A stretch of DNA of 64,000 bases, from NCBI RefSeq assembly GCF_017308015.1, contig NZ_JAFKFW010000024.1:17439-81438 (forward strand). Direction: 5' to 3'. Made by a program: the position numbers and the translations under genes. Below the pieces are notes generated by a model that ran no database searches, was not told where the DNA came from, and saw only the letters and a list, made by a program, of their open reading frames with translations. Source of the stretch: Allobosea sp. (lineage in GTDB: Bacteria > Pseudomonadota > Alphaproteobacteria > Rhizobiales > Beijerinckiaceae). Numbering within the stretch: position 1 is the first letter of the stretch; every line of letters begins with the position of its first letter. Of the stretch, positions 1,950 through 18,964 are shown piece after piece.

Positions 1950-3488
1950 TCACGCCGCCTGGACGAGGTCCTCGCCACGCGCCCGATAGGACAGGGCTTC
2001 GGCGAGATGGCGCCGGCCGACCTTCGCTTCGCCATCGAGATCGGCAAGGGTGCGGGCGACCTTCAACACGCGATGATAAGCGCGCGCCGTCAGCCGCAGC
2101 GCTTCGGTCGCATCGCGCAGCAGCGCGAGACCAGCGTTGTCCGGCCGCGCGACCTCCTCGATCACGGTGACGGGGCAGGCGGCATTGGTCATGACATGTC
2201 CGAGGCCGCGATTCTCGAAACGCGCCGCCTGAATCCGGCGGGCCGAAGCGACGCGGACAGCGACCGTCGCCGAGCTCTCGCCAATGGCGGGGCGGATGAG
2301 GTCCGCAGCCGTCACCGCCGGCACGTCGATCGCGATATCGATCCGGTCGAGCAGCGGGCCGGAGACGCGCGCCTGATATTGCGCCATGCAGCGGTCATTC
2401 GGCTGGCGGCGGCAGGCGTAGCCAGGTTCGGTCGCACGGCCGCAACGGCAGGGGTTCATCGCCGCGACGAGCTGGAAGCGTGCGGGATAGACGACGCGGT
2501 GATTGGCGCGGGAGATCAGGACGTCGCCGGTCTCCATCGGCTGTCGCAAGGCATCGAGCGCCTGCGGCTGGAATTCCGGCAGTTCGTCGAGGAAGAGCAC
2601 GCCATGATGCGCGAGCGAGACCTCGCCCGGCCGCGCCTGCAGGCCACCGCCGACGAGCGCTGCCATCGAGGCCGAATGATGCGGCGCCCGGAACGGCCGC
2701 CGGTCGGTCAGGGCGCCCTCAGCGAGCTTGCCGGCGACGGACAAGACCATCGAGACTTCGAGGAGCTCGCGGGGCGAAAGCGGCGGCAGGATCGAAGGCA
2801 GGCGGCTCGCCAGCATCGACTTGCCTGCCCCGGGCGGGCCGTTCATCAGGAGATTGTGGCCACCGGCCGCCGCGATCTCCAGAACGCGCCGCGCGCTTTC
2901 CTGACCCTTGACGTCGGCCAGGTCGGGCAATGGGCCAGCCTGGCGCGCTACGGCCGGCTCGGGCCGGGCCATCACCTGCGTGCCCTTGAAATGGTTGGCG
3001 AGCTGGATTAGCGAGCGCGGCGCCAGGATGTCGATATCCGCCGCGGCCCAGGCCGCTTCCGGCCCGGACGCCGCCGGGCAGATCAGCCCCTGCCCTTTCG
3101 CATAGGCCGCGATCGCCGCCGGCAGGACGCCCGCCACCGGTGCGATCGAGCCGTCGAGCGCCAATTCGCCGAGGACCGCATAGCCGGAAAGAGCATCGGC
3201 AGGGATCGCCCCGATCGCGGCCATCACCGCGAGCGCGATCGGCAGGTCGTAATGGCTGCCCTCCTTGGGCAGATCGGCCGGGGCGAGATTGACTGTGACG
3301 CGCTTGGCGGGCAGCGCGAGCCCCGAAGCGAGAAGCGCGGCGCGAACACGCTCGCGGCTTTCGGCCACGGCCTTGTCGGGGAGGCCGACCAGCACGAAGG
3401 CGACGCCGCCCGGCGCGACCTGGACCTGAACGTCGACGGCGCGCGCCTCGATGCCCTCGAACGCCACCGTCGCGACCCGCGCCACCAT
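1950..3488 (-). CDS. comM: YifB/ComM family Mg-chelatase-like AAA+ ATPase
   Basis: This 512-residue protein has the full ComM layout. An N-terminal Lon-like fold region (about 1-170) begins VARVATVAFEGIEARAVDVQ. The central Mg-chelatase ATPase carries Walker A GPPGAGKS (residues 217-224) and Walker B VLFLDELPEF. The C-terminal Mg_chelatase_C domain ends YRARGEDLV. ComM proteins are hexameric helicases that extend branch migration when single-stranded DNA is integrated during natural transformation. That role is known from Vibrio and Haemophilus and is only assumed here, because no other competence gene is in the window. The length is normal for the family. The gene is flanked by the hybrid kinase downstream and msrA upstream, all on the minus strand. 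Confidence 0.93.
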   Translation of the reverse strand: MVARVATVAFEGIEARAVDVQVQVAPGGVAFVLVGLPDKAVAESRERVRAALLASGLALPAKRVTVNLAPADLPKEGSHYDLPIALAVMAAIGAIPADALSGYAVLGELALDGSIAPVAGVLPAAIAAYAKGQGLICPAASGPEAAWAAADIDILAPRSLIQLANHFKGTQVMARPEPAVARQAGPLPDLADVKGQESARRVLEIAAAGGHNLLMNGPPGAGKSMLASRLPSILPPLSPRELLEVSMVLSVAGKLAEGALTDRRPFRAPHHSASMAALVGGGLQARPGEVSLAHHGVLFLDELPEFQPQALDALRQPMETGDVLISRANHRVVYPARFQLVAAMNPCRCGRATEPGYACRRQPNDRCMAQYQARVSGPLLDRIDIAIDVPAVTAADLIRPAIGESSATVAVRVASARRIQAARFENRGLGHVMTNAACPVTVIEEVARPDNAGLALLRDATEALRLTARAYHRVLKVARTLADLDGEAKVGRRHLAEALSYRARGEDLVQAA

Positions 3489-3602: not shown

Positions 3603-4259
3603 TCAGGCCTCGACGCCGAGGCCGATCTGGCAGGCGACTCCGGTGCCGCCCAGGCCGCAATAGCCAGCCGGGTTCTTCGCCAGGTACTGCTGATGGTAAT
3701 CCTCGGCGAAATAGAGCGTGGGCGCCTCGCGGATCTCGGTCGTGATCGGGCCGTAGCCGCCGGCGGCCAGCGCCTTGCCGTACTCGGCGCGCGAGCGCTC
3801 GGCGGCTTCCTGCTGCCCGGCGTCAAAGGTGTAGATCGCCGAGCGGTATTGCGTGCCGACATCGCCGCCCTGCCTCATGCCCTGAGTCGGGTCGTGGTTC
3901 TCCCAGAAGATCTTGAGCAGGTCCTCATAGGTGATCCTGGCAGGGTCGAAGACCACGAGGACGACTTCGGTATGCCCGGTCAGGCCGCTGCAAACCTCCT
4001 CATAGGTCGGGTTGGGCGTCGCGCCGCCGGCATAGCCGACGGCCGTCACCCAGATGCCCTCGCCGCTCTGCCAGAATTTGCGCTCCGCACCCCAGAAGCA
4101 GCCGAGGCCGAAGACGGCTTTGCGAAGCCCCTCCGGATAGGGGCCGGCCAGGGAGCGGCCGTTGACGAAATGTGTTTCGGCAGTGGGAATCGCCGCGGCA
4201 CGGCCGGGAAGCGCCTCGGCGGCAGTCGGAATCTCGGTCTTCTTGCGCAGGGAGAACAT
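3603..4259 (-). CDS. msrA: Peptide-methionine (S)-S-oxide reductase MsrA
   Basis: MsrA reduces the S-epimer of methionine sulfoxide in damaged proteins, with thioredoxin as reductant. The 218-residue protein contains the catalytic motif GCFWGAE with nucleophile Cys54. It also has the family blocks YAGG and YRSAIYTFD, and two C-terminal cysteines (Cys201, Cys210) in a glycine-rich tail that suit the resolving role. The frame is open much further upstream, but the start at 4259 ([13 protein letters not shown]) is chosen because homology begins there and the upstream part reads like antisense of the tRNA region. A strong terminator follows directly. trxA is in this window at 35 kb. Confidence 0.93.
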
Positions 4260-4342: not shown

Positions 4343-4663
4343 TCACCGACGCGTGACGATGCCGATGGCCTCGTCCGGGCGCCGCCCCAGCCAGAGCAAC
4401 ATGAAGCCGAGCACAAGCGCAGCCCCGGCCGCCGGGGCACGCAGCACGGTCAGCAGGACCGGATCCCAGAGCCAGGGATGGATATTGCGTTCTATCGCCG
4501 GCTGGATGAGCTGATAGCGCCCCTGGACGACGGCGATCAGCACCTCGCCGACCGGCGTAAACCGCAAGCCGGCATTCGCGATCGACCTGGCACCGTCGAT
4601 CACCAGCGCGACGAAGCCGGCCGCAACGGACAGATAACCGACAAACCGCAGAAGAAACCGCAC
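4343..4663 (-). CDS. Small inner-membrane protein with two predicted TM segments
   Basis: This is a protein of about 106 residues starting at a GTG. Two tandem GTG codons (4666 and 4663) are possible. An AGGGAG ribosome site sits 4 and 7 nt upstream of them respectively, so 4663 is preferred. The sequence starts [20 protein letters not shown]. It has a hydrophobic segment at about 5-22 and a second at about 74-93 ([14 protein letters not shown]), ending in a basic tail. I do not recognise a characterised family. It resembles small conserved hypothetical proteins of the Hyphomicrobiales. It lies 83 bp upstream of msrA on the same strand and could share its transcript. Confidence 0.6.
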
Positions 4664-4852
4664 CACCCTGCTCCCTGTCGCGCTCCATAGCGGCGGGCAC
4701 GCCGCGCCCGGCCGACCAGGCGGCCAGGACCTCAAGATGTGACCCTGCCGGCTGCGGATCGCAACCGATCGCGCGCGATTTATCGAGATTGTGCAAAACC
4801 CTGCATCTCGGCCCTTGAAAGATGGCGAACCGGCAGTCATAAGCAGCGCGCC

Positions 4853-4942
4853 GGACAGGTGGCCGAGTGGTTGAAGGCGCACGCCTGGAAAGTGTGTATA
4901 CGGGGAACCGTATCGCGGGTTCGAATCCCGCCCTGTCCGCCA
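4853..4942 (+). tRNA. tRNA-Ser (anticodon GGA), reads UCC/UCU
   Basis: This is a complete 90-nt class II tRNA. The acceptor stem pairs GGACAGG (4853-4859) with CCTGTCC (4932-4938). The anticodon loop is CTGGAAA, with anticodon GGA at 4887-4889. A long variable arm (TACGG-GGAA-CCGTA) is typical of tRNA-Ser. The T-arm is GCGGG-TTCGAAT-CCCGC. The CCA is encoded (4940-4942) and followed by TTTTT, a likely terminator. Confidence 0.97.
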
Positions 4943-5490
4943 TTTTTGCGCTTCGCGCCGCCGCCGCACCGATCCTGCACGCGTATCTTGATCGACAAAG
5001 CAGGATATTCGACCGCGCCGCAGCGCACACGCCAATATTCGTGGTCGGTTCCCCAACATTGCGGATGACGAGGCCCTTCCGGCCCGCGTCGAGGGGCCAG
5101 GCGGCTCTCGTGGCAGGAGCTGCGGCGGTGCGGCAGCCTCACGAATCGTGATGCAGAGGCGACCGCGCCATCCGAGAGCGAGAGTTTGACCTCAGTCGGG
5201 AGCCCTGACATCGCTTCGCCGTGCAGGCGGATGCTGGAGGACATGACCATCCACCAGTTCGACGCATCCATGCGGCGTGGGTATGAGCGTCAGGTCCGCG
5301 AGTTCACGCTGTTCCCCGCTTGCCCCACGATCGGGCGAAGCCCGAGGATCGGCGATGATCCGCCATCCCCATCTCCACATCATCGCACGCGGAGGCGGCC
5401 TCGGCCCCGACGGCTCACCCTGGATGACGAGACATCGCCTTACCGCTGAAGAGCGATCCTCGGGAGCACCGCTCAGGACGCTATTCAGGC
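4943..5490. other. About 550 bp without a convincing gene
   Basis: Open frames here on both strands are rich in Arg, Pro and Ser, have no ribosome sites and match no family I know. No integrase or direct repeat of the tRNA 3' end was seen, so the tRNA does not look like a used attachment site. The stretch may be decayed intergenic DNA. Confidence 0.5.
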
Positions 5491-5521
5491 GGAGAGGGCC
5501 GCTTCTGGCGCGGCCCTCTCC
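5491..5521 (-). terminator. Hairpin downstream of the isochorismatase-like gene
   Basis: An 11-bp perfect stem (GGAGAGGGCCG with CGGCCCTCTCC) encloses a 9-nt loop. It lies about 20 bp past the stop of the gene ending at 5541. No T-run follows, so it may be a weak or Rho-assisted terminator. Confidence 0.5.
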
Positions 5522-5540
5522 GTTCATGCTGTGATCTGGC

Positions 5541-6143
5541 TTACTGCTTCAGGCTGGCGATGATCTCGGCGCAGTTCGAGATCGTCACCATCGAACCCAG
5601 CGAGGCGATCGTGGACTCATGCGCGCCGACGTCGAAGCCCGCGCAGCCGTCAGAGAGGACGATGGTCTTGAAGCCGCGCATATGCGAGTCGGAGGCAGTG
5701 AAGGACACGCCGCCATTGGTGACGATGCCGCCGAAGATGCAGGTCTTGATGCCGGCGCGCTGGAGCACGAACTCGAGGCGGCTCATGTAGAAGGCCGAGT
5801 AGGTGACCTTGTCGACCGAGAGGTCGGCCGGCTGGAGCTCGTCGATCATCGCATGCCCGCGGCTGCCCGGCGCGAAGTCGCCCTGCGAGATGAACGGGCG
5901 CAGCTTGCGGATATGATCCAGCATCAGCGGCTGACCATTCTTGCCCGGCACGACCGTGAAATGCGTCGAGACGATCCAGCCGCCAGCCGCGCGCATGGCG
6001 TCGCAGACCGGAACCAGCTTCGCCGGAAGGGCGGCGATTTCTGGAGACCCCAAGCCGTTGCGCGGATAGGCTCCATCCTTGTCGTAAAAGTCGTTCTGCA
6101 TGTCCACAAGGACAAGCGCAGTGGTCTTGGGGTCGAATTCCAT
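5541..6143 (-). CDS. Isochorismatase-fold hydrolase lacking the catalytic cysteine
   Basis: This 200-residue protein has the isochorismatase/cysteine-hydrolase fold. It shows VLVDMQNDF with Asp14, and DKVTYSAF with Lys112. At the nucleophile position, where amidases of this family have TNxCV, it reads TNGGV (Gly145). Loss of that Cys with Gly instead is known in true isochorismatases (EntB, PhzD), which cleave vinyl ethers by acid-base chemistry. It is not expected in amidases such as nicotinamidase. A good ribosome site (AGGAG, 8 nt) precedes the ATG. It is the last gene of the leftward operon (regulator, aconitase-type pair, lyase), 44 bp after the lyase. It probably acts on a pathway intermediate. 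The substrate is unknown. Confidence 0.8.
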   Translation of the reverse strand: MEFDPKTTALVLVDMQNDFYDKDGAYPRNGLGSPEIAALPAKLVPVCDAMRAAGGWIVSTHFTVVPGKNGQPLMLDHIRKLRPFISQGDFAPGSRGHAMIDELQPADLSVDKVTYSAFYMSRLEFVLQRAGIKTCIFGGIVTNGGVSFTASDSHMRGFKTIVLSDGCAGFDVGAHESTIASLGSMVTISNCAEIIASLKQ

Positions 6144-6187
6144 GGTTAGACTCCTGATGGTAAAGTCGAAAACATGTCTGTCGCGGC

Positions 6188-7090
6188 TCAGCCGCGACCC
6201 GCCGGGTCGTATCCGGCTGCCGCATCGAGAAGCCTTGCGGTCCCGAGGCGCTCGTTGAGCTCGACGAAATCGAGCATCTGCTCGCGGAAGGGCCCGTTTG
6301 TCCCATGTGCGAGCAAGCTGCCGTAATAGCGCTCGGCCGTGTGGCAGAGCGCGCGGATAATTCCACCGGGAAAGATCACCAGCCTGAAGCCGATGCCCTC
6401 GAGGTCGGCCGCGGTCATCATCGGCGTCGAGCCGCCCTCGACCATGTTGGCGAGCAGCGGCACCGATCCCTCGAAGGCACGCGCGATCTCGCGCATCTGC
6501 ACGATCGACTGCGGAGCCTCGATGAAGAGGATATCACAGCCCGCCGCGACATAGCGGCGACCGCGATCGAGCGCGGCGGCAAAGCCCTCCACCGCGATGG
6601 CATCGGTGCGTGCGATGACGAGGGTCGAAGCGTTCAGGCGTGCATCGACGGCCGCCCGCACCTTGCCGACCATCTCATCCACGGCGACGAGGCTCTTGCC
6701 GCGGAGGTGGCCGCAGCGCTTCGGCATCTCCTGGTCTTCGAGCTGGATCGCGGCAGCACCGGCCTTCTCGAAGGCCCGCACCGTGCGTGCCGCATTGAGC
6801 GCGTTGCCGAAGCCCGTGTCAGCGTCAACGATGATCGGCAGATCGACCCGCTCGGCGATCTGCGAGAGCGTCGCCTCGACTTCGCTCATCGTGACGAGCC
6901 CGACATCCGGCCGCCCGAGCCGTCCGTAAGCGATGTTCGCTCCCGAAAGATAGAGGGCCTCGGCGCCGGCACGCGCCGCGACGAGCGCAGTCAACGCATC
7001 CGATATCCCGGGAGCCAGCAGGATCCTCCCTTCCTCCAGACGACGTCCGAGTTCGATCTGCCGACGCCCCGCGCCGCCTTCGTCAAGCAT
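6188..7090 (-). CDS. Isocitrate lyase / PEP mutase superfamily C-C lyase
   Basis: This 300-residue TIM-barrel enzyme belongs to the 2-methylisocitrate lyase group. Visible motifs are VDADTGFG (metal-binding Asp89, Asp91), QLEDQ (Glu118), and the flexible-loop signature KRCGH (residues 124-128) with Cys126 as the usual acid catalyst. KRCGH points to a true lyase that splits a 2-hydroxy or 2-methyl dicarboxylate into pyruvate or glyoxylate plus a second acid. It argues against phosphonomutases or decarboxylases lacking that Cys. The start at 7090 has AGGAG 9 nt upstream and overlaps the small-subunit gene by 8 nt, so translation is coupled. Pairing with an aconitase-type dehydratase resembles dimethylmalate or methylcitrate routes. 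No methylcitrate synthase is present. Confidence 0.85.
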   Translation of the reverse strand: MLDEGGAGRRQIELGRRLEEGRILLAPGISDALTALVAARAGAEALYLSGANIAYGRLGRPDVGLVTMSEVEATLSQIAERVDLPIIVDADTGFGNALNAARTVRAFEKAGAAAIQLEDQEMPKRCGHLRGKSLVAVDEMVGKVRAAVDARLNASTLVIARTDAIAVEGFAAALDRGRRYVAAGCDILFIEAPQSIVQMREIARAFEGSVPLLANMVEGGSTPMMTAADLEGIGFRLVIFPGGIIRALCHTAERYYGSLLAHGTNGPFREQMLDFVELNERLGTARLLDAAAGYDPAGRG

Positions 7091-7601
7091 TCTGGGACTC
7101 CTGGCGGGGCTCGCCGAGCCGCGCCTTGACATAGGGAACCAGCCCGCCTGCGCGGGCGATTTCGAGCAGGTTCGGCGGCACCGGCGCGCAGACACAGCCG
7201 CGGCTCCGCGACAGATTGGTCAGACACCCCGTTCGCGGATCCAGGCTGACGCGGTCGCCGGTCTCGAACAGCTCGACCGCTTCCGCCGATTGCAGCGCCA
7301 TCAGCCCGTTGTTGAAGGCGTTGCGGTAGAAGATGCCGCCGAAGCTGCGCGCGACGACAGCGCGGATGCCGAGATGCAGCAGCGCCTGCGCCGCCTGCTC
7401 CCGCGATGAACCGATCCCGAAACCGCGGCCGGCGATCACGACATCCCCCGGTTTCACGCTCGCCGCGAACTCTTCGTCGAGAGCCTCGAGGCAATGTTTG
7501 GCGAGCTCCGCCATCGGCGCCTTCATGTAGAGGCCCGGGGCCAGCATGTCGGTATCGACGGAGTCGCCGAAGCACCTGGCCGTTCCCTCGATCGTATCCA
7601 T
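7083..7601 (-). CDS. Aconitase-type hydro-lyase small subunit (LeuD/DmdB-like)
   Basis: The 172-residue swivel domain protein carries the substrate-binding block GFGIGSSREQA (residues 60-70), the counterpart of GSSREHA in LeuD and homoaconitase small subunits. The C-terminus (GGLVPYVKARLG) is also typical. It forms a heterodimer with the large subunit encoded 2 bp upstream. The start at 7601 is set by homology and by the near-contact with the large-subunit stop. Biosynthetic isopropylmalate isomerase is possible, but a lyase rather than leuB follows, and a HutC regulator leads the operon. A catabolic hydratase is therefore more likely. Confidence 0.85.
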   Translation of the reverse strand: MDTIEGTARCFGDSVDTDMLAPGLYMKAPMAELAKHCLEALDEEFAASVKPGDVVIAGRGFGIGSSREQAAQALLHLGIRAVVARSFGGIFYRNAFNNGLMALQSAEAVELFETGDRVSLDPRTGCLTNLSRSRGCVCAPVPPNLLEIARAGGLVPYVKARLGEPRQESQNA

Positions 7602-7603
7602 CG

Positions 7604-8878
7604 TCAGCCCTTCAGGAATTCGCGCGGGTCGGCGATCGTCCCGACGATCGCGCTTGCGGCCACGGTGTAGGGCGAGCCGAGATAGACGGCCGAGGTCTTG
7701 TCGCCCATCCGGCCGCGGAAATTCCGAGCCGTGCTCGACAGGCAGACCTCGCCCTCTGCCAGCACGCCCGCGCCATAGCCCGCGCACGCTCCGCAGCCGG
7801 AGGGAAGCAACGTGGCGCCGGCTGCCGTCAGGATCGCCAATGTGCCGTCGGCGGCGGCCATTTCGATGGTGCGCTGGCTGGCCGGCGCCACCAGGAGCCT
7901 CACGGACGAGGCGACCGAGCGGCCTTTCAGGACGCTGGCGGCCATCTGCAGGTCGACCAGCTTGGCGCCCGTGCAGGCGCCGATATAGGCGACGTCAAAG
8001 GCCACGCCGGCGAAGGTGTCGACAGCCGAGGTGTTCTCGGGGCTGTGCGGCGCGGCGACCTGAGGTCCTATTTCGCTCGGGCCGAGCCTGACGATCTCGG
8101 CAATCTCGGCATCGGCATCGGAGCGGAGGCGGGCCAGGTCGTCCGGACGCGGATGGCCGAAGCGATCGAGATAGCGCCAGGTCGTCTCGTCGGCCGGAAC
8201 GATGCCGGACAAACCGCCGAGTTCCGCCGCCATGTTGCACAGCGTCATCCGCTCCTGCATGTCCATGGCTTCGATCGCCGAGCCGCGATACTCGACGACG
8301 CGATAGCCGGCGCCATCCATGCCCAGACGCCGGCAGAGAGTCAGCATGACGTCTTTGGCGCAGACCCCGAGCGGCAACGCTCCGTCGATCTCGACGACCA
8401 TCGTTTCCGGCGTTCGCAACCAGGTGTCGCCGGTCGCCAGCGCGCAGGCCATGTCGGTGGCGCCGACGCCGAACATCAGGCAGCCGAAGGCGCCGCCGGT
8501 AGGCGAATGGCTATCCCCGCCGATGGCGAACATGCCGGGGCGCAGATGGCCGTGCTCGGGCACCACGACATGGCAGATGCCGCGCATGTCGTAGAAGGCG
8601 GCGATGCCGTTGGCCTTGGCCCAGCGACGGCTGCCATGCAGGATCGCTGCGCTCTCAGCGTCGAAACCCGGCGCGAAATGGTCGTTGACCAGGACCACGC
8701 GGGCAGGATCCCAGACACCGGCTCCGAGCCTCTCGAGTATCGGCGCGACGCGGCGCGGCCCGCCCGAGTCATGAATCATCGCCAGATCGAGACGGCAGGT
8801 GACGACGTCACCGGCCCGGACGCCCTCTCTGCCGGAGGCGCGTGCGACGATCTTCTCGGCCAGGGTGAAACCGGGCAT
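7604..8878 (-). CDS. Aconitase-type hydro-lyase large subunit (LeuC/DmdA-like)
   Basis: The 424-residue protein has the three cluster ligands of the aconitase superfamily: Cys302 in YIGACTGAK, and Cys362 and Cys365 in PSGCGACAG. These should hold a [4Fe-4S] cluster that activates the substrate hydroxyl. Other family blocks are VNDHFAPG and GGDSHSPTGGAFG. It is closer in length to archaeal-type and dimethylmaleate-hydratase-type LeuC (about 420) than to enterobacterial LeuC (about 465). Its start lies 3 bp after the regulator's stop, with GGGGAG as ribosome site. Together with the small subunit it should interconvert two hydroxy-diacids by dehydration and rehydration, or hydrate an unsaturated diacid. 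Confidence 0.88.
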   Translation of the reverse strand: MPGFTLAEKIVARASGREGVRAGDVVTCRLDLAMIHDSGGPRRVAPILERLGAGVWDPARVVLVNDHFAPGFDAESAAILHGSRRWAKANGIAAFYDMRGICHVVVPEHGHLRPGMFAIGGDSHSPTGGAFGCLMFGVGATDMACALATGDTWLRTPETMVVEIDGALPLGVCAKDVMLTLCRRLGMDGAGYRVVEYRGSAIEAMDMQERMTLCNMAAELGGLSGIVPADETTWRYLDRFGHPRPDDLARLRSDADAEIAEIVRLGPSEIGPQVAAPHSPENTSAVDTFAGVAFDVAYIGACTGAKLVDLQMAASVLKGRSVASSVRLLVAPASQRTIEMAAADGTLAILTAAGATLLPSGCGACAGYGAGVLAEGEVCLSSTARNFRGRMGDKTSAVYLGSPYTVAASAIVGTIADPREFLKG

Positions 8879-8881
8879 CGC

Positions 8882-9694
8882 TCAGCTCCCCGTCATGTCG
8901 GACGGAGCATCGTCGACATGCCAGTGGCCGCCCGTGCGGGGCGAATGAACACGGGAAAGGCTGAAGTGATACTGGAACCGGTCGGGACGATAGAGAGCGA
9001 CCAGATGCTCGACCGGACGCCCGGTCGAATCGTAGACGACCCTCACGATTCGCATCAGGGGATTGCCCGGCTCGACCCCCAGCAGCGGCGCGACGGTAAC
9101 GTCCGCCAGCGTCGCCGAAATGGTCTGCTCGGCACGGTCAATCTCGATGCCGAGCCCCTCGAGAAGCCCGATCAGCGGCCCGCTCGCCATCTCCTCCGCC
9201 GAGATGCGCTCGCCGAGATCGGCCGGCACATGCGTGGTCAGGTGCGAGAAAACCTCCCCCGAGATCTCCCGCAGGCGGACTGCCCTTTGCACAGGCGAGC
9301 CCGAAGGAATCCTGAGGTCGGCCGCGACGCGCGGAGGGGCCTGGACGAAGTCGCATCTCACCAGCCGGACCGAAGTCTCGGCTCCCATGCGCCGGATGCG
9401 CTCGACCAGTTGCTCGACTGACGAAACGATCGGCTCGGCACGGGCGACACCGACAGGATTCACCCTGGTGCCCTTGCCGCGCGCACGGACCACCAGACCG
9501 GCCGCGGCGAGCTCGTTCAGCGCACGACTGGCGGTGATGCGCGACACGCCATAGCTCTCGGCGATCTCGCTCTCCGTAGCCACACGCCCGTCCTCGGGAA
9601 CATCGCCCGCGAGGATCTTCTCCCGCATCTGCAGATAGATCCGGTGATAGAGCGGGACGCGCATCCCGTCGCCGTCGTCGACCCCGTTTGCCAT
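8882..9694 (-). CDS. GntR-family transcriptional regulator, HutC subfamily (UTRA domain)
   Basis: This regulator of about 270 residues has an N-terminal winged helix (PLYHRIYLQMREKILAGDV, then ESEIAESYGVSRITASRALN). A C-terminal UTRA effector domain of about 150 residues follows (VQRAVRLREISGEVFSH, then PVEHLVALYRPDRFQYHFS). In-frame ATGs at 9751, 9721 and 9694 are possible. I use 9694 because the domain begins 13 residues later and the 9751 option would sit inside the palindrome at 9742-9759. It is the first gene of the leftward operon and diverges from an ABC operon. It probably represses both and is released by the substrate or an intermediate, which is an inference from gene order and the shared palindrome. 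Confidence 0.85.
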   Translation of the reverse strand: MANGVDDGDGMRVPLYHRIYLQMREKILAGDVPEDGRVATESEIAESYGVSRITASRALNELAAAGLVVRARGKGTRVNPVGVARAEPIVSSVEQLVERIRRMGAETSVRLVRCDFVQAPPRVAADLRIPSGSPVQRAVRLREISGEVFSHLTTHVPADLGERISAEEMASGPLIGLLEGLGIEIDRAEQTISATLADVTVAPLLGVEPGNPLMRIVRVVYDSTGRPVEHLVALYRPDRFQYHFSLSRVHSPRTGGHWHVDDAPSDMTGS

Positions 9695-9741
9695 GGAGTT
9701 ATCGCCTGCCAGGGGCGGCATCGCCGCTCGCCACAAATGTT

Positions 9742-9773
9742 CTATTGACATAGCAATAGGGTAATTCAATACT
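9742..9773 (+). promoter_or_regulatory. Sigma70-like promoter overlapped by a palindromic operator
   Basis: A perfect inverted repeat CTATTG-N6-CAATAG covers 9742-9759. The -35 hexamer TTGACA (9745-9750) lies inside it. After 17 bp comes AATACT (9768-9773, four of six matches to TATAAT), 24 bp before the ABC ATPase start. A repressor bound here would block the -35. It sits between two divergent operons and just upstream of the HutC gene, so it is the likely autoregulatory site. Confidence 0.7.
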
Positions 9774-9796
9774 CCCGGCAAGCTAAAAAGGCGGGA

Positions 9797-10594
9797 ATGG
9801 ACTGGCCGGTGACGATGCTTCTCTTCGAGCAGGTCGATATGGATTTCAGCGCGAACGGCAGGGCGGTACCTGCCGTTCGCGGCGTCGATCTCGCCGTGGA
9901 GGCGGGCGAGATCGTCACGCTCGTAGGGCCGTCCGGCTGCGGCAAGTCGACCTTGCTCAACATCACGGCGGGCCTCTTCGCACCAAGCCGCGGGCGGGCG
10001 CTCTACAACGGCGCGCCGATCAGGGGCATCAATACGCGCGTCGGCTACATGACCCAGAACGATCACCTGCTGCCCTGGCGGGACGTGCTGGGCAACATCT
10101 CGGTGCCGATGGAGATCGCCGGCCTGTCACAGGCGCGCAAGCGCGAGCGTGCGGAAGAACTGCTGTCCCTCGTCGGGCTGTCGGGCTTCGAAAAGGCCTA
10201 TCCCGCGCAACTCTCGGGCGGCATGCGCAAGCGCGCGGCGCTGGCGCGGCTGCTGGCGCAGGATCCAGAAACCCTGCTGATGGACGAACCCTTCGGCGCG
10301 CTCGACGCGCAATTGCGCCTGCTGCTGCAGGCCGAGTTGCGCCGCGTCGCCAAGCGCTTCGGAAAGACGGTGCTGTTCGTCACGCATGATCTCGACGAGG
10401 CGGTCGCCATCGCCGATCGCTGCGTGATCTTCGCCGGAAGGCCGGGTCGCATCGCCGAGGTGCTGCCTATTACGCTGCCGGTCGACCGGGACCTTTTCAA
10501 GCTCCGCTTCGATCCGGCCTACAACGAACTCTGCGCCAGGCTCTGGAGCATCATCGCACCGGAGCTCGCGTCCGGACTGGCGGCATCGCAATGA
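9797..10594 (+). CDS. ABC transporter ATP-binding protein, SsuB/TauB/NitT type
   Basis: The 265-residue ATPase has Walker A GPSGCGKST, the Q-loop YMTQNDHLLPW, signature LSGGM (in place of the usual LSGGQ), Walker B LLMDEP and the H-loop FVTHD. Its best relatives are nitrate/sulfonate/taurine-type importer ATPases. The start at 9797 has GGCGGGA close upstream; an internal ATG at 9815 is the alternative. It is the first gene of a three-gene importer operon and its stop overlaps the permease start (ATGA). It is presumably co-regulated with the divergent catabolic operon. Confidence 0.9.
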   Translation: MDWPVTMLLFEQVDMDFSANGRAVPAVRGVDLAVEAGEIVTLVGPSGCGKSTLLNITAGLFAPSRGRALYNGAPIRGINTRVGYMTQNDHLLPWRDVLGNISVPMEIAGLSQARKRERAEELLSLVGLSGFEKAYPAQLSGGMRKRAALARLLAQDPETLLMDEPFGALDAQLRLLLQAELRRVAKRFGKTVLFVTHDLDEAVAIADRCVIFAGRPGRIAEVLPITLPVDRDLFKLRFDPAYNELCARLWSIIAPELASGLAASQ

Positions 10595-11355
10595 TCATCG
10601 CTCTTCGCCTCGGCCTTGTCGCCGCGCTTCTCCTCGCCTGGGAACTCGCCTCCGGGAGGCTGGTGCCGGAGTTCTTCGTCTCACGGCCGAGCGCCATCGC
10701 GGTCGCCCTGGCCAACTACATCCAGGACGGGATGATTTTCTTCCATATGGGCGTGACGGCGACGGAGGCCATCGCCGGATTCCTGCTGGGCGGAGGCGCG
10801 GGCTTCGCGGCCGGCCTGCTCCTCGGCCGGCAGCCTGTCCTCGCCGATGTGCTGGACCCCTTCCTGACAGCGTTCTACAGCCTGCCCAAGGTCGCGCTGG
10901 CGCCGCTCTACGTGCTCTGGTTCGGTATCGGCATCGAAATGAAGATCGTCCTCGCGGCGACGATCGTTTTCTTCCTCGTCTTCCTGAACACATATTCCGG
11001 CGTGCGCCAAGTCAGCCGCGAGCAGCTCACCATCCTGCGGCTGATGGGCGCCTCGGAATGGCAGACGATGCGGATGGTGGTGGTCCCGTCCGCCGTGAGC
11101 TGGGTCTTCACCGGCCTCAGGCTGTCTGTCCCTTACGCCCTGATCGGGGCCATCGTGGGCGAAATGATCGCATCCAACCGCGGGCTGGGCTTCGTCCTGT
11201 CCGATGCCGCCGGCCAGTTCAGTACCGCCAACGTCTTCGCCGCGCTGCTGGTGATCACCGTCCTCGCCATCCTGCTCAACATGGCCGTCCGACTGGCCGA
11301 AAAGATGCTCATGCCCTGGCAGCATGCAGGGAACCGCCGCGAATTCAGCGTCTGA
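10591..11355 (+). CDS. ABC transporter permease, SsuC/TauC type
   Basis: The 254-residue inner-membrane permease has about six hydrophobic segments and the BPD_transp_1 coupling loop (QLTILRLMGASEWQTMRMVV), which contacts the ATPase. The N-terminal segment ALRLGLVAALLLAWELASG and the block FYSLPKVALAPLYVLWFG are typical of the NitT/TauT family. It overlaps the ATPase gene by 4 nt and is followed 28 bp later by the binding-protein gene. Confidence 0.9.
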   Translation: MIIALRLGLVAALLLAWELASGRLVPEFFVSRPSAIAVALANYIQDGMIFFHMGVTATEAIAGFLLGGGAGFAAGLLLGRQPVLADVLDPFLTAFYSLPKVALAPLYVLWFGIGIEMKIVLAATIVFFLVFLNTYSGVRQVSREQLTILRLMGASEWQTMRMVVVPSAVSWVFTGLRLSVPYALIGAIVGEMIASNRGLGFVLSDAAGQFSTANVFAALLVITVLAILLNMAVRLAEKMLMPWQHAGNRREFSV

Positions 11356-11383
11356 GACATCACAAACAAGGAGGGGACTTCCA

Positions 11384-12433
11384 ATGGGTTCACAGATCAC
11401 GAAGCGCAGCTTCCTGACAACGATGGCGGGCGCCTCGGCGCTCTCCTTGCCCTCGTTGTTCGGCGCGACGGGCGCGGCAGCGGCAGATGTCGTCCGCTTC
11501 GCGCAGCCGAGTGACGGCTTCCTCTACCTGCCGATCTACATCGCCCGGGCCAAAGGGTTCTTCGAGCAGGAAGGCATCAACGCCGACGTCGTGGTTTTCA
11601 AGGGCGGCGCAGCCGCGCTTTCGGCCGTGATCTCGAACGGCTCCGATGTCTATATCGGGGTACCGGCCATCGGCATGAACGCCATTGCCCAAGGGCAGCC
11701 CGTCAAGATGTTCGCATCGGTGATGACGGAGTATGCGAGCAATATCGTCATCCGCGGCGACGTCGCCAAGAAGCTCGGCCTCACCGATAAAAGCCCGGTC
11801 GAGCAGCGGCTCGCTGCGCTCAAGGGGCTGACGATCGGTATCACCGGCCCTGGCGCCGCGCCGGACCTTCTGCTGCGCCACATCGCCAAGACGATGAAGT
11901 GGAATCCGGATCGCGACTTCGAGATGACGCCGCTCGGCAGCGGCCCGAACATGCTGGCCGCCTTCTCGCAGAAGCGTATCGACGGCTATTGCCTGTCCTC
12001 GCCGACGAGCACGACCGGCGTCGTCAAGTACGACGGCTACCAGTTGCTCAACCTGTCGGCCGGCGAGTACGCGCCGCTCAAGGGCTTCCTGTACATCAGC
12101 CTGATCGCGAAGGATCCCTGGCTGGCCGCCAACCCGGATCGATCGGCGCGGATCGTCAGGGCGCTGTGGCGCGGGCAGAAGCTGCTGCGTGAAAATCCGG
12201 CTGCGGCGAAGGAAGCAGTCCGAGGCTTCTTCAAGGGAACCGAGCCGGCCATCTTCGACGCGGCCTGGGACGAGAATTTGCCGGCCTTCCCGGGTGCACC
12301 GCAGATCGCCGCGGACGCCATCAAGGCGAACCTCGATTTCATCGCCGAGATGGAAGGCAAAAAGCTCGCGCTCGATCCGATGCAGACCTTCACCAATGCC
12401 TATGCCGACGCTGCGGCGAAGGGACTGTCCTGA
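11384..12433 (+). CDS. Periplasmic substrate-binding protein, NMT1/SsuA-like
   Basis: The 349-residue protein starts at 11384 behind a strong AAGGAGG ribosome site. The leader MGSQITKRSFLTTMAGASAL runs to an AAA-type cleavage site near residue 31 and could be Sec or weak Tat (KR rather than RR). The mature part opens VVRFAQPSDGFLYLPIYIA and GFFEQEGIN, the usual start of NMT1/THI5-like or SsuA-like proteins. These bind small organic acids, sulfonates, nitrate or pyrimidine precursors. The neighbouring enzymes make a carboxylic acid plausible, but the ligand cannot be read from the sequence. Confidence 0.88.
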   Translation: MGSQITKRSFLTTMAGASALSLPSLFGATGAAAADVVRFAQPSDGFLYLPIYIARAKGFFEQEGINADVVVFKGGAAALSAVISNGSDVYIGVPAIGMNAIAQGQPVKMFASVMTEYASNIVIRGDVAKKLGLTDKSPVEQRLAALKGLTIGITGPGAAPDLLLRHIAKTMKWNPDRDFEMTPLGSGPNMLAAFSQKRIDGYCLSSPTSTTGVVKYDGYQLLNLSAGEYAPLKGFLYISLIAKDPWLAANPDRSARIVRALWRGQKLLRENPAAAKEAVRGFFKGTEPAIFDAAWDENLPAFPGAPQIAADAIKANLDFIAEMEGKKLALDPMQTFTNAYADAAAKGLS

Positions 12434-12521
12434 GCGAGATCGACGTTCTCGCCTGGAGTTAGGGTAGAACCGCCCCTGGTTTGCCGGCACCGCACTGCGA
12501 CGCCCGGCAGCAATAGCCTGT

Positions 12522-12561
12522 GCGAGAACCGGATCCGGCCTGCGGCGGGTCCGGTTCTCGC
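12522..12561 (+). terminator. Hairpin ending the ABC importer operon
   Basis: A 15-bp stem with a single G-T wobble (left arm 12522-12536, right arm 12547-12561, loop 10 nt) lies 88 bp after the binding-protein stop. There is no clear T-run, so strength is uncertain. Confidence 0.6.
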
Positions 12562-12570
12562 CTCTGCAGC

Positions 12571-12720
12571 TCATGACCGGGTGCAGGCGAGGCCTATTCG
12601 CGAGGCCTTGCCCAGTCCCACTGCCTTCTGCCTGCCGCCCCACCGGGACAGCACGAGCCGGAGCCGCGCACCGCAGGCGTCCACATGAAGATCGGCTCCC
12701 CTGCCATCGTCATGATACCT
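12571..12720 (-). pseudogene. Remnant of a tyrosine-type integrase N-terminal domain (DUF4102-like)
   Basis: The minus-strand frame reads GADLHVDACGARL, then SRWGGRQKAVGLGKAS. This matches the pattern of P4-type integrase N-terminal domains (D-GGGL-L-V-P-GAK-WR-RYR-GG--K---LG-YP). Only about 50 residues survive, ending at a stop at 12571, with no catalytic domain on either side. The rest of the interval 12434-13068 holds no other gene that I can support. Confidence 0.45.
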
Positions 12721-13068
12721 CCCTCGCAACCGTATCGACCTTCCGAGCAGAACGGTCGTCGCTTGCGCGCCATCCCTGCGCATGCCGTCCATGACCCTGG
12801 TTTTCATCCCATCCAGCGCAAGTCGAGGCTGGCCAAAGCGACCGACCGTGATCGATCAGTGCAGCCGGCAGTTGCGTTCCAGATTGAAATCGGCCTCGTT
12901 CGACCCGGGGTGACGCGCGGTTCGGCGGGCGCCTGCGATGCAAGGCACCTGTTCGCCCGCGAGCGCTTCTCAAGCCGGGAGCTTGCTCCTAGGGTCACCA
13001 AGCGGATTGGCACGACGATCGGCGGCCGCCGCAGGATATCGACGCGAACCCGGCTCAGGAAGGCTTCC

Positions 13069-14001
13069 ATGGCGCGCCATCACTTCGTCCCGACCCGTTA
13101 TTCGAACGTGCTCGCCACCTTGCCGCCAGTGCTGGAAATCGCCAGCGGCGACAGCGTCGTCACCACCACGCTCGACGCTGCCGGCTTCGGCGGCGACGGC
13201 GAGCAGCACGCCCCGCGCGGCAACCCGATGACCGGCCCGTTCTTCGTCACCGGTGCCGAACCCGGCGACGCCCTGCTCGTCACCATCGAGCGGATGACGC
13301 CGAACCGGAAGACCGGCTGGACCTATTCGCCGCTGGCTCCCGGCGTGCTCGATCCTGCGATGCTGCACGAGCTGCCGAAGCGCGAGCGCCATGAATGGGC
13401 GATCGACGCGCAGGCCGGCACAGTGAAGCTGCTGGAGCCTTCAGCCGGGATCAGGGACTGGAGTTTCCCGCTCGAGCCAATGCTCGGCTGCTTCGGCGTC
13501 GCGCCGGAACGCGCCCAGGCGATCTCGACCGCGACCAGCGGCGCCAATGGTGGCAACATGGATTACCGGCTGTTCGGGCCGGGCGCGACCATCGCCTTCC
13601 CGGTCTTCGTCGACGGCGCGCTGTTCTTCCTCGGCGACGGCCATGCCTGCCAGGGCGATGGCGAGATCGCCGGCACCGGCGTCGAGACCTCGTTCGAGGT
13701 CGAATTCTCGGTGAAACTCGTCAAGAAGCAGAACCTGCGCTGGCCGCGCTGCGAGACCGAGACCGATCTGCTGGTCATCGCCAGCGGACGCCCGCTCGAT
13801 CAGCCCCTGCAATTCGCCACCACCGAATTGCTGCGCTGGGTCGGCGATGCCCTCGGGGTCGACCCGGTCGAGGCGAGCCACCTGCTCGGGCAGGCCGTGC
13901 GCTACGACATCGCCAATGTCTTCAACCCCGCCTATTGCGTCGCCGCCCGGCTCGAGAAGACGGAGCTGACGCGCGCCATGTCCTTCCGCTCGCGCGGCTA
14001 A
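13069..14001 (+). CDS. Acetamidase/formamidase family protein
   Basis: The 310-residue protein belongs to the FmdA/AmdA family, which hydrolyses short amides (formamide, acetamide) to the acid and ammonia. Recognisable blocks are SGDSVVTTTLDAAGFGGDG, NPMTGPFFVTGAEPGD, the central LGCFGVAPERAQAIST followed by GGNMDYRLFGPGATI, and the metal-site region FLGDGHACQGDGEIAGTGVE. The frame is open from 12685, but the ATG at 13069 (MARHHFVPTRY) has AGGAAGG upstream and fits the family start. It is followed 34 bp later by an M20 hydrolase, likely in the same transcript. Confidence 0.9.
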   Translation: MARHHFVPTRYSNVLATLPPVLEIASGDSVVTTTLDAAGFGGDGEQHAPRGNPMTGPFFVTGAEPGDALLVTIERMTPNRKTGWTYSPLAPGVLDPAMLHELPKRERHEWAIDAQAGTVKLLEPSAGIRDWSFPLEPMLGCFGVAPERAQAISTATSGANGGNMDYRLFGPGATIAFPVFVDGALFFLGDGHACQGDGEIAGTGVETSFEVEFSVKLVKKQNLRWPRCETETDLLVIASGRPLDQPLQFATTELLRWVGDALGVDPVEASHLLGQAVRYDIANVFNPAYCVAARLEKTELTRAMSFRSRG

Positions 14002-14035: not shown

Positions 14036-15307
14036 ATGTCCGAGAATACCGCCGCCCTGAAGGCCGAACTGCTTCAGGCGATCGACACGCGCCGCGACGA
14101 GATCATCGCGCTGCTGCAACGCTTCCTGCGCATCAAGAGCGTCAACCCGCCGGGTGACACGCGCGAGGCCGCGGCCTTCGTGCGCGAACTGCTCGACGCA
14201 GCTGGCGTGCCGCATCGCACCGAGGCCTTCGTGCCGGAGATGCCGAACATCATCAGCCGCTGGCAGGCTGGAAAGCCCGGCCGCCATCTCATGCTCAACG
14301 GCCATATGGACATCTTCCCGGTCACCAACGAGAAGCTCTGGGATGCCGAGATCGTCGACGGCAAGATCATGGGCCGCGGCGCTTCCGACATGAAGACCGG
14401 AACGCTCGCCTCGATCCTCGCCTTCTGCCAGCTCTATCCCCACCGCGAGAAGCTCAACGGCGCGCTGTCGCTGACCGTGGTCTCGGACGAGCAGTCGGGC
14501 GGTCGCTACGGCACCAAATATCTGTTCGACGAGTTCGGCGACGAGATGGAGGCCGATTGCTGCCTCAACGGCGAGCCCAGCGGCCTCGCCAATCTGCGCT
14601 TCACCGAGAAGGGTACGCTGCGCTTCTCGCTCTCGGCGAAAAGTATCGGCGGCCATGGCGGCTATGCCCATCGCGCACGCAACCCGATCGCGGATGTGAG
14701 CCGGCTCGTGACCGCGATCTATGACCGCTACCATCTCAAGCTCGCGGAGTTGCCGCCGGAAATCGATACCGTCCTGACCTCGCCCGAGACGATCGCGGCG
14801 GCCGACCTCAATCTCGGCAAGGGCGCGGGTGACATCGCAAGGCGCATCACCGTCAATGTCGGCATCCTGCAGGGCGGACAAAAGGCGACGCAGATCCCGA
14901 CGCATTGCATCGCCCATCTCGACATGCGCATCCCGATCGGCTCCGACCGCGACGCGATCCGCGCCGATCTCGAAGCCCTCGCGCGCGAAGCCGATTGCGA
15001 GATGGTCGTCAACGAGGACCACAGCTATCCCGCGAGCCTGACCGATCCGTTCAGCGAGATGGCCAATATCCTGCGCGGCAATATCCGCGACCTGCTCGGG
15101 CATGACGCACCGCCGGTGTCGAGCCTGGGCGGCACCGATACGCGCTATTGGCGCTGGCGCGGCGTGCCCGCCCTGATCTGCGGGCCATCGCCGATCAGCA
15201 TGGGCACCGACGAGGAGCACGTCACCATCGACGAGGCCATCGCGGTGATGAAGCTGCACGTCGCCTGCGCAGTCGACTATCTCGGCTCGACGGAGGCGTC
15301 CAACTAA
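14036..15307 (+). CDS. M20 family metallohydrolase (ArgE/DapE/ACY1-type)
   Basis: The 423-residue amidohydrolase or peptidase has the first metal motif LNGHMDIFPV (His90, Asp92), the bridging Asp118 in GRGASDMKTG and a later ligand in LNGEPSG (Glu180). A distal His lies in EEHVTIDEA near the C-terminus. The catalytic pair that normally reads D-E-E is DEQSGG (Asp151, Glu152, Gln153). The general base Glu152 remains, but the next residue, usually a metal-ligand Glu, is Gln. Family members deacylate N-acyl amino acids or cleave dipeptides. It follows the acetamidase by 34 bp, which suggests amide or N-acyl compound use. Substrate unknown. Confidence 0.88.
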   Translation: MSENTAALKAELLQAIDTRRDEIIALLQRFLRIKSVNPPGDTREAAAFVRELLDAAGVPHRTEAFVPEMPNIISRWQAGKPGRHLMLNGHMDIFPVTNEKLWDAEIVDGKIMGRGASDMKTGTLASILAFCQLYPHREKLNGALSLTVVSDEQSGGRYGTKYLFDEFGDEMEADCCLNGEPSGLANLRFTEKGTLRFSLSAKSIGGHGGYAHRARNPIADVSRLVTAIYDRYHLKLAELPPEIDTVLTSPETIAAADLNLGKGAGDIARRITVNVGILQGGQKATQIPTHCIAHLDMRIPIGSDRDAIRADLEALAREADCEMVVNEDHSYPASLTDPFSEMANILRGNIRDLLGHDAPPVSSLGGTDTRYWRWRGVPALICGPSPISMGTDEEHVTIDEAIAVMKLHVACAVDYLGSTEASN

Positions 15308-16731: not shown

Positions 16732-17535
16732 TCAGCCGCGCTGGGTCAGGTCCGCCGGCAGGTCGCGGTTGTGGAACTTCTTGAAAACGGCGTTGAGCTC
16801 GCCATCGGCGACCTTCTTCTTGATCCAGCCGTCGAGCCAGGACTTCAATTCCGTCTCGCCCTGCGGCAGGGCGATGCCGAGATTGAGCTCCTGCTGGACG
16901 AACTTGGTCGCAAGCTTGGCGCCGCTGCGCTTCTCGTTCATCGCGGCGAGGACGGCGGTCTGGGTCGAGACGATATCGACCTGGCCGGAGACGACGGCGG
17001 TTATCAGGGTCGCATCATCCTCGAAGCGGACGATCTCGGCGCCCTTGGCGTTCTGCGTCACCATCTGGTCGTTGACGGTGGCGCGGGTCACCGCGATGCG
17101 CTTGCCGGTCAGGTCGTTGTAGTCCTTGATCGCGACGTTGTCGGGACCGGCGACGATGATGTTCAGCGTCGCATAGGGAACGGAGAAATCGACGGCCTTC
17201 TTGCGCTCGGGCGTGATGCCGAGATTGGCGACGAGAATGTCGGCCTTCCGGGTCTGGATCGTCGGCACGCGCGCGGCATTGGTGATCTCGACCAGCTCGA
17301 GCTGGACGCCGAGATCCTTGGCGATAAGCTTGGCGGTCTCGACATCGGAGCCGGTCGGCTTGAGCTGGCCGTCGACGAAGGCGAAGAGCGGCACGCCCAT
17401 GGCAACCGCGACGCGGATCTTGCCGGCCTTCTTGATGTCGGCGAGCTGGTCGGCATGGGCTGCACTGCCCAGCGCGAGGAAGGCGCCGGCGGTCGCGGCG
17501 AGGCCAAAGGCGGTGCGGCGGGTGATCGTGGTCAT
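16732..17535 (-). CDS. ABC transporter substrate-binding protein, family 3 (polar amino acid type)
   Basis: The 267-residue periplasmic protein has the leader MTTITRRTAFGLAATAGAFL with a twin arginine (Arg6-Arg7), and a cleavage site near SAAHA-DQ. The mature part shows the SBP_bac_3 pattern: KKAGKIRVAVAMGVPLFAF, SDVETAKLIAKDLGV, ADILVANLGITPERKKAVDFS. The family usually binds amino acids or opines. Here the gene is in an operon with kduI and kduD, so a uronate or other sugar acid ligand is plausible. It lies 59 bp after the ATPase gene. Confidence 0.9.
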   Translation of the reverse strand: MTTITRRTAFGLAATAGAFLALGSAAHADQLADIKKAGKIRVAVAMGVPLFAFVDGQLKPTGSDVETAKLIAKDLGVQLELVEITNAARVPTIQTRKADILVANLGITPERKKAVDFSVPYATLNIIVAGPDNVAIKDYNDLTGKRIAVTRATVNDQMVTQNAKGAEIVRFEDDATLITAVVSGQVDIVSTQTAVLAAMNEKRSGAKLATKFVQQELNLGIALPQGETELKSWLDGWIKKKVADGELNAVFKKFHNRDLPADLTQRG

Positions 17536-17594
17536 GGTCGTTTCCCTTTTCGTTGTCGTTATGATCGTCGAGCAGCCGAATGGCCGCGGGATCG

Positions 17595-18960: not shown

Positions 18961-18964
18961 GCCC

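Follow-up and report, generated by a model that had tools for sequence, protein, structure and literature searches.

What is taken up and broken down by the gene cluster at positions 5541–12433 of a 64,000-nucleotide (nt) stretch of Allobosea sp. DNA? In this stretch, hereafter the window (coordinates are 1-based within it), two divergent operons comprise eight genes. One side encodes an isochorismatase-fold hydrolase (ISO), a C-C lyase of the ICL/PEPM superfamily (LYASE), the small and large subunits of an aconitase-family hydratase (SMALL and LARGE) and a GntR-type regulator, while the other encodes an NMT1-type ATP-binding cassette (ABC) importer. A sequence-only reading had proposed that a small organic acid, or its ester or ether, is imported, freed by the hydrolase, hydrated and cleaved. 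Gene calling with a compact codon model, for which the window itself served as training set, confirmed all eight genes, and Pfam and NCBIfam backed every assignment. The set is a real, coherent catabolic unit that represents a short form within a broad cluster family, and the proposed order of uptake, hydrolase, hydratase and lyase proved largely right, with the last two forming a conserved block. The acid also stood, whereas the ester or ether became less likely: because relatives add cyclic-amide ring-openers, a dehydrogenase of the flavocytochrome c/TcuA group (FADox) and, in a few cases, glutarate-degrading enzymes, the evidence points to an acid derived from an imide or half-amide and bearing a carboxyethyl arm. 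We infer every reaction and substrate discussed here from gene content, homology, conservation, module swaps and co-location. The general route, from a cyclic amide or half-amide to the acid, the hydrated acid and its cleavage, is likely, and hematinic acid is our single best guess for the compound.

The gene set is more than a chance assemblage, because numerous other genomes carry its enzyme core as a block of genes. The hydratase and the lyase recur widely, mainly in Pseudomonadota. With an E-value limit of 1e-80, 25 of the 296 other genomes in a sample of the order had a LARGE match, 22 of them at 57–64% and three at 38–43% identity, and a class-wide search with LYASE gave matches in 46 of 385 genomes, including its own. 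Gene contexts were counted with identity thresholds and a distance of 12 kb in 80 named loci, the best 80 of 587; additional G loci come partly from the same genomes. LARGE-SMALL-LYASE is the usual block in the neighbourhoods of both the order sample and the named loci, and a frequent arrangement is GntR - LivJHMGF - LARGE - SMALL - LYASE - HyuB - HyuA - ISO - FADox. SMALL was present in 77 of the 80 named loci, LYASE in 61 (with a lyase of another type in four), HyuB in 44, HyuA in 41, ISO in 35 and FADox in 23. Thus, of the conservation of the eight-gene set, which the sequence-only reading had wanted checked, the enzyme core is widely kept, but the exact set was absent from the stretches around the order-sample matches, several of which lie on short contigs. 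The nearest arrangements are found in two relatives. L124 combines an NMT1 permease and ATPase (33–42% identity) and an NMT1-domain binding protein with ISO, LARGE, SMALL, LYASE and glutarate-type genes, and L225 carries GntR, LYASE, HyuB, HyuA, ISO and an NMT1 binding protein and ATPase, with no LARGE/SMALL on its 8.7-kb contig.

The modules that surround or replace parts of this core bear on its chemistry. HyuAB, resembling caprolactamase, lies beside the core in 44 of the 80 named loci and a PuuE/imidase-like pair in five, and at the thresholds used the two are mutually exclusive except in L087. There, an HyuB remnant of 82 amino acids (aa; 12172–12417), 79% identical and containing a stop, is flanked by LYASE on one side and on the other by an imidase-like module in opposite orientation, which looks like a module replacement under way. 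By parsimony on quick trees, HyuAB and PuuE were exchanged at least seven times on the LARGE tree and at least six times on the LYASE tree. The hydratase is exchanged as well: a weakly PrpD-similar protein (27 bits) takes the place of LARGE/SMALL in L195 and L217, and a longer LeuCD-like pair (35–37% identity for LARGE) does so in L200 and L204. Because unrelated or distant enzymes repeatedly replaced these modules, the swaps suggest that the exchanged enzymes perform equal steps, namely opening of a cyclic amide, hydration and cleavage.

HyuAB of the relatives aligns over its full length with the ATP-dependent caprolactamase CapAB and hydantoinase HyuAB. Unlike these, it stays below the cut-off (HyuA matched CapA best, with 509 bits against an equivalog cut-off of 1000), and the window has no copy. 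The CapA/HyuA family comprises cyclic-amide hydrolases (PMC8453981). The PuuE-like protein of L040 matched PuuE allantoinase and, more weakly, HP0310, and the PuuE group is related to cyclic imidases (PMC9304392). An allantoinase/hydantoinase-like amidohydrolase adjoins the core in L095, with a similar one, judged by its first residues, in L108; the amidohydrolase beside the core in L117 is closer to deaminases. Known cyclic imide catabolism (P. putida imidase, A. nidulans HxnM/HxnN; PMC9304392) likewise begins with an imidase that opens the ring and an amide hydrolase that frees the acid. In contrast, most clusters with an opener use HyuAB instead of an imidase, their ISO lacks the catalytic Cys, and a hydratase and a lyase follow. 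FADox resembles flavocytochrome c (223 bits) and the tricarballylate dehydrogenase TcuA (148 bits), both below cut-off, and would suit a tri-acid that is saturated because the pyrrole ring it came from was reduced. On the LARGE tree the window stands beside L199 (SH-aLRT 92) and near L129, and the ISO tree agrees weakly. Because both neighbours carry HyuAB, the short form of the window probably arose through loss of HyuAB, together with FADox and Liv, which are present in L199, and through gain of the NMT1 importer.

The hydratase and the lyase themselves narrow the substrate class. LARGE (7604–8878, minus strand) has the cysteines C302, C362 and C365, which are invariant among 14 aligned sequences. 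It passed the subfamily cut-offs of NF001614 (515 vs 385 bits), TIGR01343 (459 vs 386) and TIGR02086 (431 vs 410) and fell below the equivalog cut-offs of LEU2 3-isopropylmalate dehydratase (371.7 vs 610.7) and methanogen HacA homoaconitase (393.2 vs 550). SMALL (7083–7601, minus strand), with a GSSRE motif, passed the cut-off of the LeuD/DmdB-type hydratase subfamily (TIGR02087, 165 vs 109 bits). Its recognition loop reads YMK, and the position is Lys in 108 of 127 loci and basic (K, R or H) in 116. In isopropylmalate isomerase and homoaconitase, substrate preference is governed by this loop region (PMC7308503), and the basic residue suggests a third carboxylate on the substrate. LYASE (6188–7090, minus strand, 300 aa) shares the KRCGH loop with solved PrpB, but EGG and FPGG (motifs NMVEGGSTP and FPGG) replace EFG and YPLS, and its 287.8 bits do not reach the PrpB equivalog cut-off (TIGR02317, 354.4). 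NMVEGG and FPGG are near-constant across 23 aligned lyases of several context types, with FPGS in L117. Hydratases of the LeuCD/aconitase type need neighbouring carboxylates, and the substrate of an ICL/PEPM-type lyase must be a 2-hydroxy acid whose next carbon bears a carboxylate. The pairing of the two enzymes in the sequence-only reading was well founded: they form a conserved block, and the profile of the lyase family is nearest to petal death protein (252.1 bits), by a small margin over methylisocitrate lyase (250.2). The core thus resembles the lower half of the 2-methylcitrate cycle, in which an aconitase-family hydratase is followed by an ICL-superfamily lyase with a KRCGH loop, and the PrpD-similar substitutes in L195 and L217 strengthen this likeness. 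It differs from that cycle in the sub-threshold PrpB score, in the two altered lyase motifs and in its link to cyclic-amide openers.

An indication of the cleavage product came from genes adjoining the core in a few relatives. For this count only, duplicates were removed, which reduced 147 loci to 135 distinct ones (2.18 Mb). A glutaryl-CoA-dehydrogenase-like gene (≥50% identity) was found in four of them (L060, L124, L125 and L138), and a SUGCT-like CaiB in three (L060, 542 bits; L124, 463; L204, 513), with NF052585 as the best-scoring family. The L124 protein, labelled acyl-CoA dehydrogenase, matched 4w9u (737 bits, the top match, named just acyl-CoA dehydrogenase), 3gnc (635.7) and human 1sir (566.3). 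The name glutaryl-CoA dehydrogenase is thus putative, being based on this comparison with solved enzymes and on the 67–68% identity of the other three proteins to that of L124. Among solved structures, the L124 CaiB was closest to the CaiB/BaiF protein 4ed9, followed by human SUGCT (9br6). A role of CaiB and the acyl-CoA dehydrogenase as an upstream desaturase had been considered and was dropped once the dehydrogenase matched glutaryl-CoA dehydrogenases. The host genome has a copy 80% identical to the L124 dehydrogenase. As controls, 33 of 34 window proteins outside the cluster occurred in none of the 135 loci and one ABC ATPase in three; all controls came from the window, and for a gene present once per genome roughly 0.5 loci would be expected. 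Because the controls were unmatched for gene class, the co-location is support rather than proof. A 90-residue piece of a glutaryl-CoA-dehydrogenase-like gene also lies divergently beside LARGE in L154 (10235–10504), next to a transposase-like gene (this name, like integrase-like, KduI-like and, in L157, PrpD-like, is a reading of sequence starts without database comparison).

Whether glutarate is the product is about even. If it is, the substrate would carry a carboxyethyl arm, R-C(COOH)=C(COOH)-CH2CH2COOH, and with R = methyl the structure is that of the hematinic tri-acid, which exceeds 2-methyl-cis-aconitate by one CH2. Pyruvate plus glutarate had been written down for hematinic acid before the glutarate-type neighbour genes were identified.

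We therefore weighed the proposal that the cluster is a self-regulated catabolic operon for a carboxyethyl-maleate-type substrate (maleamate or maleimide) with glutarate as a product, and consider the case for it almost, but not quite, evenly balanced. The compound would first be imported, in the window by the NMT1-type ABC system. In many relatives, HyuAB or a PuuE-type imidase would then open an imide ring; the window cluster has no opener, so that a half-amide might be imported or the ring opened elsewhere. ISO would remove the amide nitrogen, perhaps, and this is speculative, with the neighbouring cis-carboxylate standing in for the missing Cys. In relatives only, a flavoprotein near TcuA would desaturate a saturated compound. 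LARGE/SMALL would hydrate the tri-acid and LYASE would cleave the product into glutarate and pyruvate, after which glutarate would pass through CoA transfer to glutaryl-CoA dehydrogenase.

That the substrate is hematinic acid itself (2-methyl-3-carboxyethyl type) is a tentative assignment. Every year, vast amounts of chlorophyll are synthesised and broken down. Openly licensed literature that we searched yielded neither a description of this cluster family nor a bacterial pathway that consumes hematinic acid or maleimide end products. Senescent leaves and lake sediments have yielded hematinic acid and maleimides (PMC7318184), hematinic acid has been reported from heme oxidation (PMC7318184, PMC10343206), and ChuS of E. 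coli is reported to release it from heme (PMC10343206). More tentatively still, the family as a whole may represent a so far undescribed bacterial mineralisation of hematinic acid and maleimides from heme, bilin and chlorophyll through a 'homo-methylcitrate' branch with a substrate-assisted, Cys-less ISO, of which the window would hold a compressed form with an NMT1 importer. If true, this would fill a gap in the turnover of tetrapyrroles, the isochorismatase fold would have a new use in the Cys-less hydrolase, and many soil and marine bacteria would carry genes of one route under the wrong names 'isopropylmalate dehydratase', 'methylisocitrate lyase', 'hydantoinase' and 'isochorismatase'.

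Several observations weigh against a carboxyethyl-maleimide substrate. Neither ring-opener was found in 32 of the 80 named loci; many of these are short contigs, but 13 of the 52 loci of at least 15 kb also lack both. FADox is frequent, though a maleimide would need no desaturase. Between 4901 and 16600 the window holds no remnant of HyuAB, an imidase or FADox, and the genome has no FADox ortholog; its ring-opener paralogs, all on other contigs, are only 34–40% (HyuA, for which two surroundings were read) or 24–30% identical (PuuE-like). None of the enzymes of the window reached a curated equivalog cut-off, and the recognition loop position is Ala in 8 of 127 small subunits and Ser or Gly in three. 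Glutarate-type enzymes adjoin few loci (4 and 3 of 135). All four dehydrogenases scored highest with FadE models of NCBIfam and lower with the glutaryl-CoA (Acd) model (193–223 bits, cut-off 470), and the SUGCT-like CaiB proteins remained under the 750-bit equivalog cut-off of NF052585. The expectation of glutarate was neither single, because pyruvate plus butyrate for ethylmethylmaleimide had been noted alongside it, nor blind, because the names CaiB and acyl-CoA dehydrogenase had already been seen in L060. To this are added the residues of ISO, which are treated below, and the NMT1 importer, which has no direct tie to the proposed ligand.

Among the alternatives, a dialkylmaleate route survives best, although we regard it as unlikely. 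Dimethylmaleate or ethylmethylmaleate, or the imide or half-amide, would be hydrated to a dialkylmalate and cleaved to pyruvate (or 2-oxobutyrate) and a short fatty acid. In the nicotinate fermentation of Eubacterium barkeri, dimethylmaleate hydratase and its lyase give pyruvate and a short fatty acid, and petal death protein cleaves dialkylmalates. The subfamily of SMALL (LeuD/DmdB), the profile of LYASE, nearest to petal death protein, and the EGG loop common to these two lyases, where methylisocitrate lyase has EFG, are all consistent with such a route. The glutarate-type enzymes beside four or five loci and the basic loop residue, however, hint at a third carboxylate, and neither methylitaconate isomerase nor B12 mutase was noticed in the loci read, where no search was aimed at them. 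As a system, DmdAB with dimethylmalate lyase of E. barkeri shares with our core the LeuCD-type two-subunit hydratase and the ICL-type lyase. It differs in that a few of our loci have glutarate-type downstream enzymes and in that no nicotinate-fermentation genes were recognised in the loci read, again without an aimed search. We consider a homoaconitate-type substrate without the methyl group quite improbable: the hydratase would form homoisocitrate and the lyase would release glyoxylate and glutarate. LARGE does exceed the cut-off of the homoaconitate hydratase family (TIGR01343), and glutarate-type enzymes in a few relatives would suit this product, but the lyase is closest to enzymes that form pyruvate or other 2-oxo acids (methylisocitrate lyase, petal death protein). 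Moreover, an abundant natural imide that bears a carboxyethyl arm but lacks the methyl group is not known to us, which counts against this substrate.

The step assigned to ISO is the weakest joint of the route from an imide or half-amide to glutarate. ISO (5541–6143, minus strand, 200 aa) matched the isochorismatase domain (Pfam PF00857, 112 bits), and its predicted fold is nearest to RutB, BiuH and TrtA. With these enzymes it shares the fold, the catalytic Asp and the Lys; unlike them, it has Gly in place of the catalytic Cys. In a survey of 67 loci at ≥45% identity, with the window included and some genomes represented twice, the Asp (D14) was present in 67 of 67 sequences and the Lys (K112) in all 66 readable ones. 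The Cys position, fixed by alignment to TrtA (C162) and its C162S mutant, corresponds to Gly145 (TNGGV) and is Gly in all 66 readable sequences, so that the Asp-Lys-Cys triad of cysteine amidohydrolases is incomplete. ISO60, the isochorismatase-fold protein of the PuuE module, kept the Cys in 14 of 14 cases. Because the triad Cys is Gly in all readable sequences, ISO is, judged by its residues, not an ordinary amidase of the isochorismatase fold, and its predicted active site lends no support to amide hydrolysis. Our first reading of ISO as a simple half-amidase was weakened once the Cys proved absent. Similarly, the earlier statement that the hydrolase frees the acid held in outline, in that a hydrolase is present, but is not secured, with its catalytic Cys missing.

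Two readings of ISO are left, namely hydrolysis of a half-amide with the cis-carboxylate as internal nucleophile, or attack on a vinyl-ether-like or enamine bond. Dialkylmaleamic acids hydrolyse unaided through their neighbouring carboxylate. We prefer the first reading only because HyuAB plus ISO is exchanged for an imidase plus the Cys-bearing ISO60. A ureide route, in which a hydantoin-type ring would be opened by HyuAB or PuuE and the resulting ureido acid would be the substrate of ISO, seems to us very unlikely. Hydantoinases and allantoinase belong to the HyuA and PuuE families and RutB, BiuH and TrtA are the nearest relatives of ISO, but replacement of its Cys inactivates TrtA, ISO lacks that Cys, and the hydratase, the C-C lyase and the glutarate-type enzymes would have no role after an amino acid. 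True isochorismatases keep the Asp and Lys without the Cys. They act on vinyl ethers through the catalytic Asp and a nearby Lys (PMC12210187), and ISO, which retained both and lost the Cys, might accordingly be a vinyl-ether hydrolase acting on an imported enol ether of the acid. We hold this to be the least probable alternative, since 34 of the 35 named loci with ISO also have the cyclic-amide opener HyuAB (only L124, whose importer is of the NMT1 type as in the window, does not) and ureide amidohydrolases match ISO best in both sequence and fold, ahead of the isochorismatase domain of AngB.

The control region is consistent with regulation of the whole set by its own regulator. As had been stated earlier, the eight genes share one control region between two divergent operons, and we additionally found a palindrome in it. 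The regulator gene (8882–9694, or to 9721 or 9751, minus strand) encodes a repressor-like protein of the GntR/HutC type with GntR and UTRA domains (Pfam). With 102 bits against the HutC equivalog cut-off of 220 (TIGR02018), it has only this domain architecture in common with HutC. In 35 of the 80 named loci, a GntR/UTRA gene lies no more than 12 kb from the core. The palindrome CTATTG-N6-CAATAG (9742–9759, no strand) is the sole match in the 64 kb at up to one mismatch, where shuffles lead one to expect 0.01. It covers the -35 box of TTGACA-17-AATACT (9745–9773, plus strand), a sigma70-like promoter on the importer side predicted from its consensus match; this is the only such site in the scanned region 5300–13000, in which one is also expected by chance. 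The palindrome lies outside the regulator gene with the start candidates 9694 and 9721, and not with 9751. Overall, it is a candidate operator, and the region fits a GntR/UTRA repressor that would govern its own gene set. The tight coupling described earlier applies to most junctions (LYASE/SMALL, 8-nt overlap; SMALL/LARGE, 2 nt; LARGE/regulator, 3 nt; ATPase/permease, 4-nt overlap), but not to the ISO gene (44 nt) or to the binding protein gene, which 28 nt precede.

The importer is encoded by genes for an SsuB/TauB-type ATPase (9797, or 9815, to 10594), an SsuC/TauC-type permease (10591–11355) and an NMT1/THI5-type periplasmic binding protein (11384–12433; PF13379 and PF09084), all on the plus strand. 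The NMT1 domain together with the matching permease and ATPase identifies an NMT1/SsuA-type ABC importer; it falls short of the cut-off for aliphatic sulfonate importers (SsuA TIGR01728, 54.6 bits, subfamily cut-off 163.5). The model of the binding protein (mean pLDDT 79.5) was nearest to 3qsl and to Thi5 and thiamin-type binding folds, and the structure search returned the general NMT1/Thi5 fold with no hint of a ligand. The sequence-only reading had treated importer and enzymes as one unit, a link that importers standing apart from the enzymes would break. This applies in part: most relatives with a recognisable importer carry another type, namely Liv (19 of the 80 named loci), TTT (five), Dpp (four) or TRAP, for which the threshold of 26% is loose, and NMT1 was counted in two. 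An NMT1 system adjoins the core in the window, L124 and L225 only, besides a 51% identical permease in L100. Conversely, the three nearest homologs of the binding protein in the class sample adjoin a 45% identical lyase, a hydratase pair (37/33%), and a 35% identical ISO gene with a PrpD-like gene, respectively. The link between importer and enzymes is thus weak, consisting of position, the common control region, L124, L225 and these three homologs.

Variants of the core were observed as well. The 37 stretches around the class-wide LYASE matches show partly the same contexts, and the lyases of L210, L215 and L219 have no recognised partners. In L202 (5585–8956) and L214 (9117–12223), LYASE adjoins FADox and a second ICL/PEPM-fold protein without a hydratase, a still shorter variant. 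L056 and L057 contain a separate cluster with a 37–47% identical hydratase-lyase block, a Dpp-type importer and MlrC-like and gamma-glutamyltransferase-like genes (the latter label being our own), perhaps a related route for another compound. In L124 (11382–12167) and L126 (5238–6023), proteins of the arylmalonate decarboxylase/Asp-Glu racemase family with an ANTTVEPE motif stand beside the core and could be a cis-trans isomerase of a substituted maleate. Proteins such as that of L051 (1894–2448), in which a 4-oxalocrotonate-tautomerase-like stretch at the N-terminus is joined to an additional C-terminal portion, lie near the cluster in 18 of the 80 named loci.

In its own genus the cluster is rare. 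Among 61 genomes a LARGE ortholog was found in the host alone, the single other match being 39% identical, and a family sample of 298 genomes contained one further genome with a 56% identical homolog and two more at 39–42%. The cluster sits in a variable region beside tRNA-Ser(GGA) (4853–4942, plus strand), which forms its left border, because synteny ends at this tRNA in all four congeners compared (chosen by closest MsrA from 14 with a match among 25). Homologs of the genes to its left (1950–3488, 3603–4259 and 4343–4666) are conserved in all four, and the DNA to its right holds four distinct gene sets, that of L241 with an integrase-like gene. Downstream of the importer operon and on the same strand lie genes for an FmdA/AmdA-type amidase (13069–14001) and an M20-type deacylase (14036–15307); used as queries in context searches for possible helpers, they turned up beside the core in none of the relatives covered there, and we left them outside the set. 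Further on (16732–21965), an amino-acid-type ABC importer, a short-chain dehydrogenase/reductase, a KduI-like gene, named from sequence alone, and a GntR-type regulator perhaps form a uronate catabolic set.

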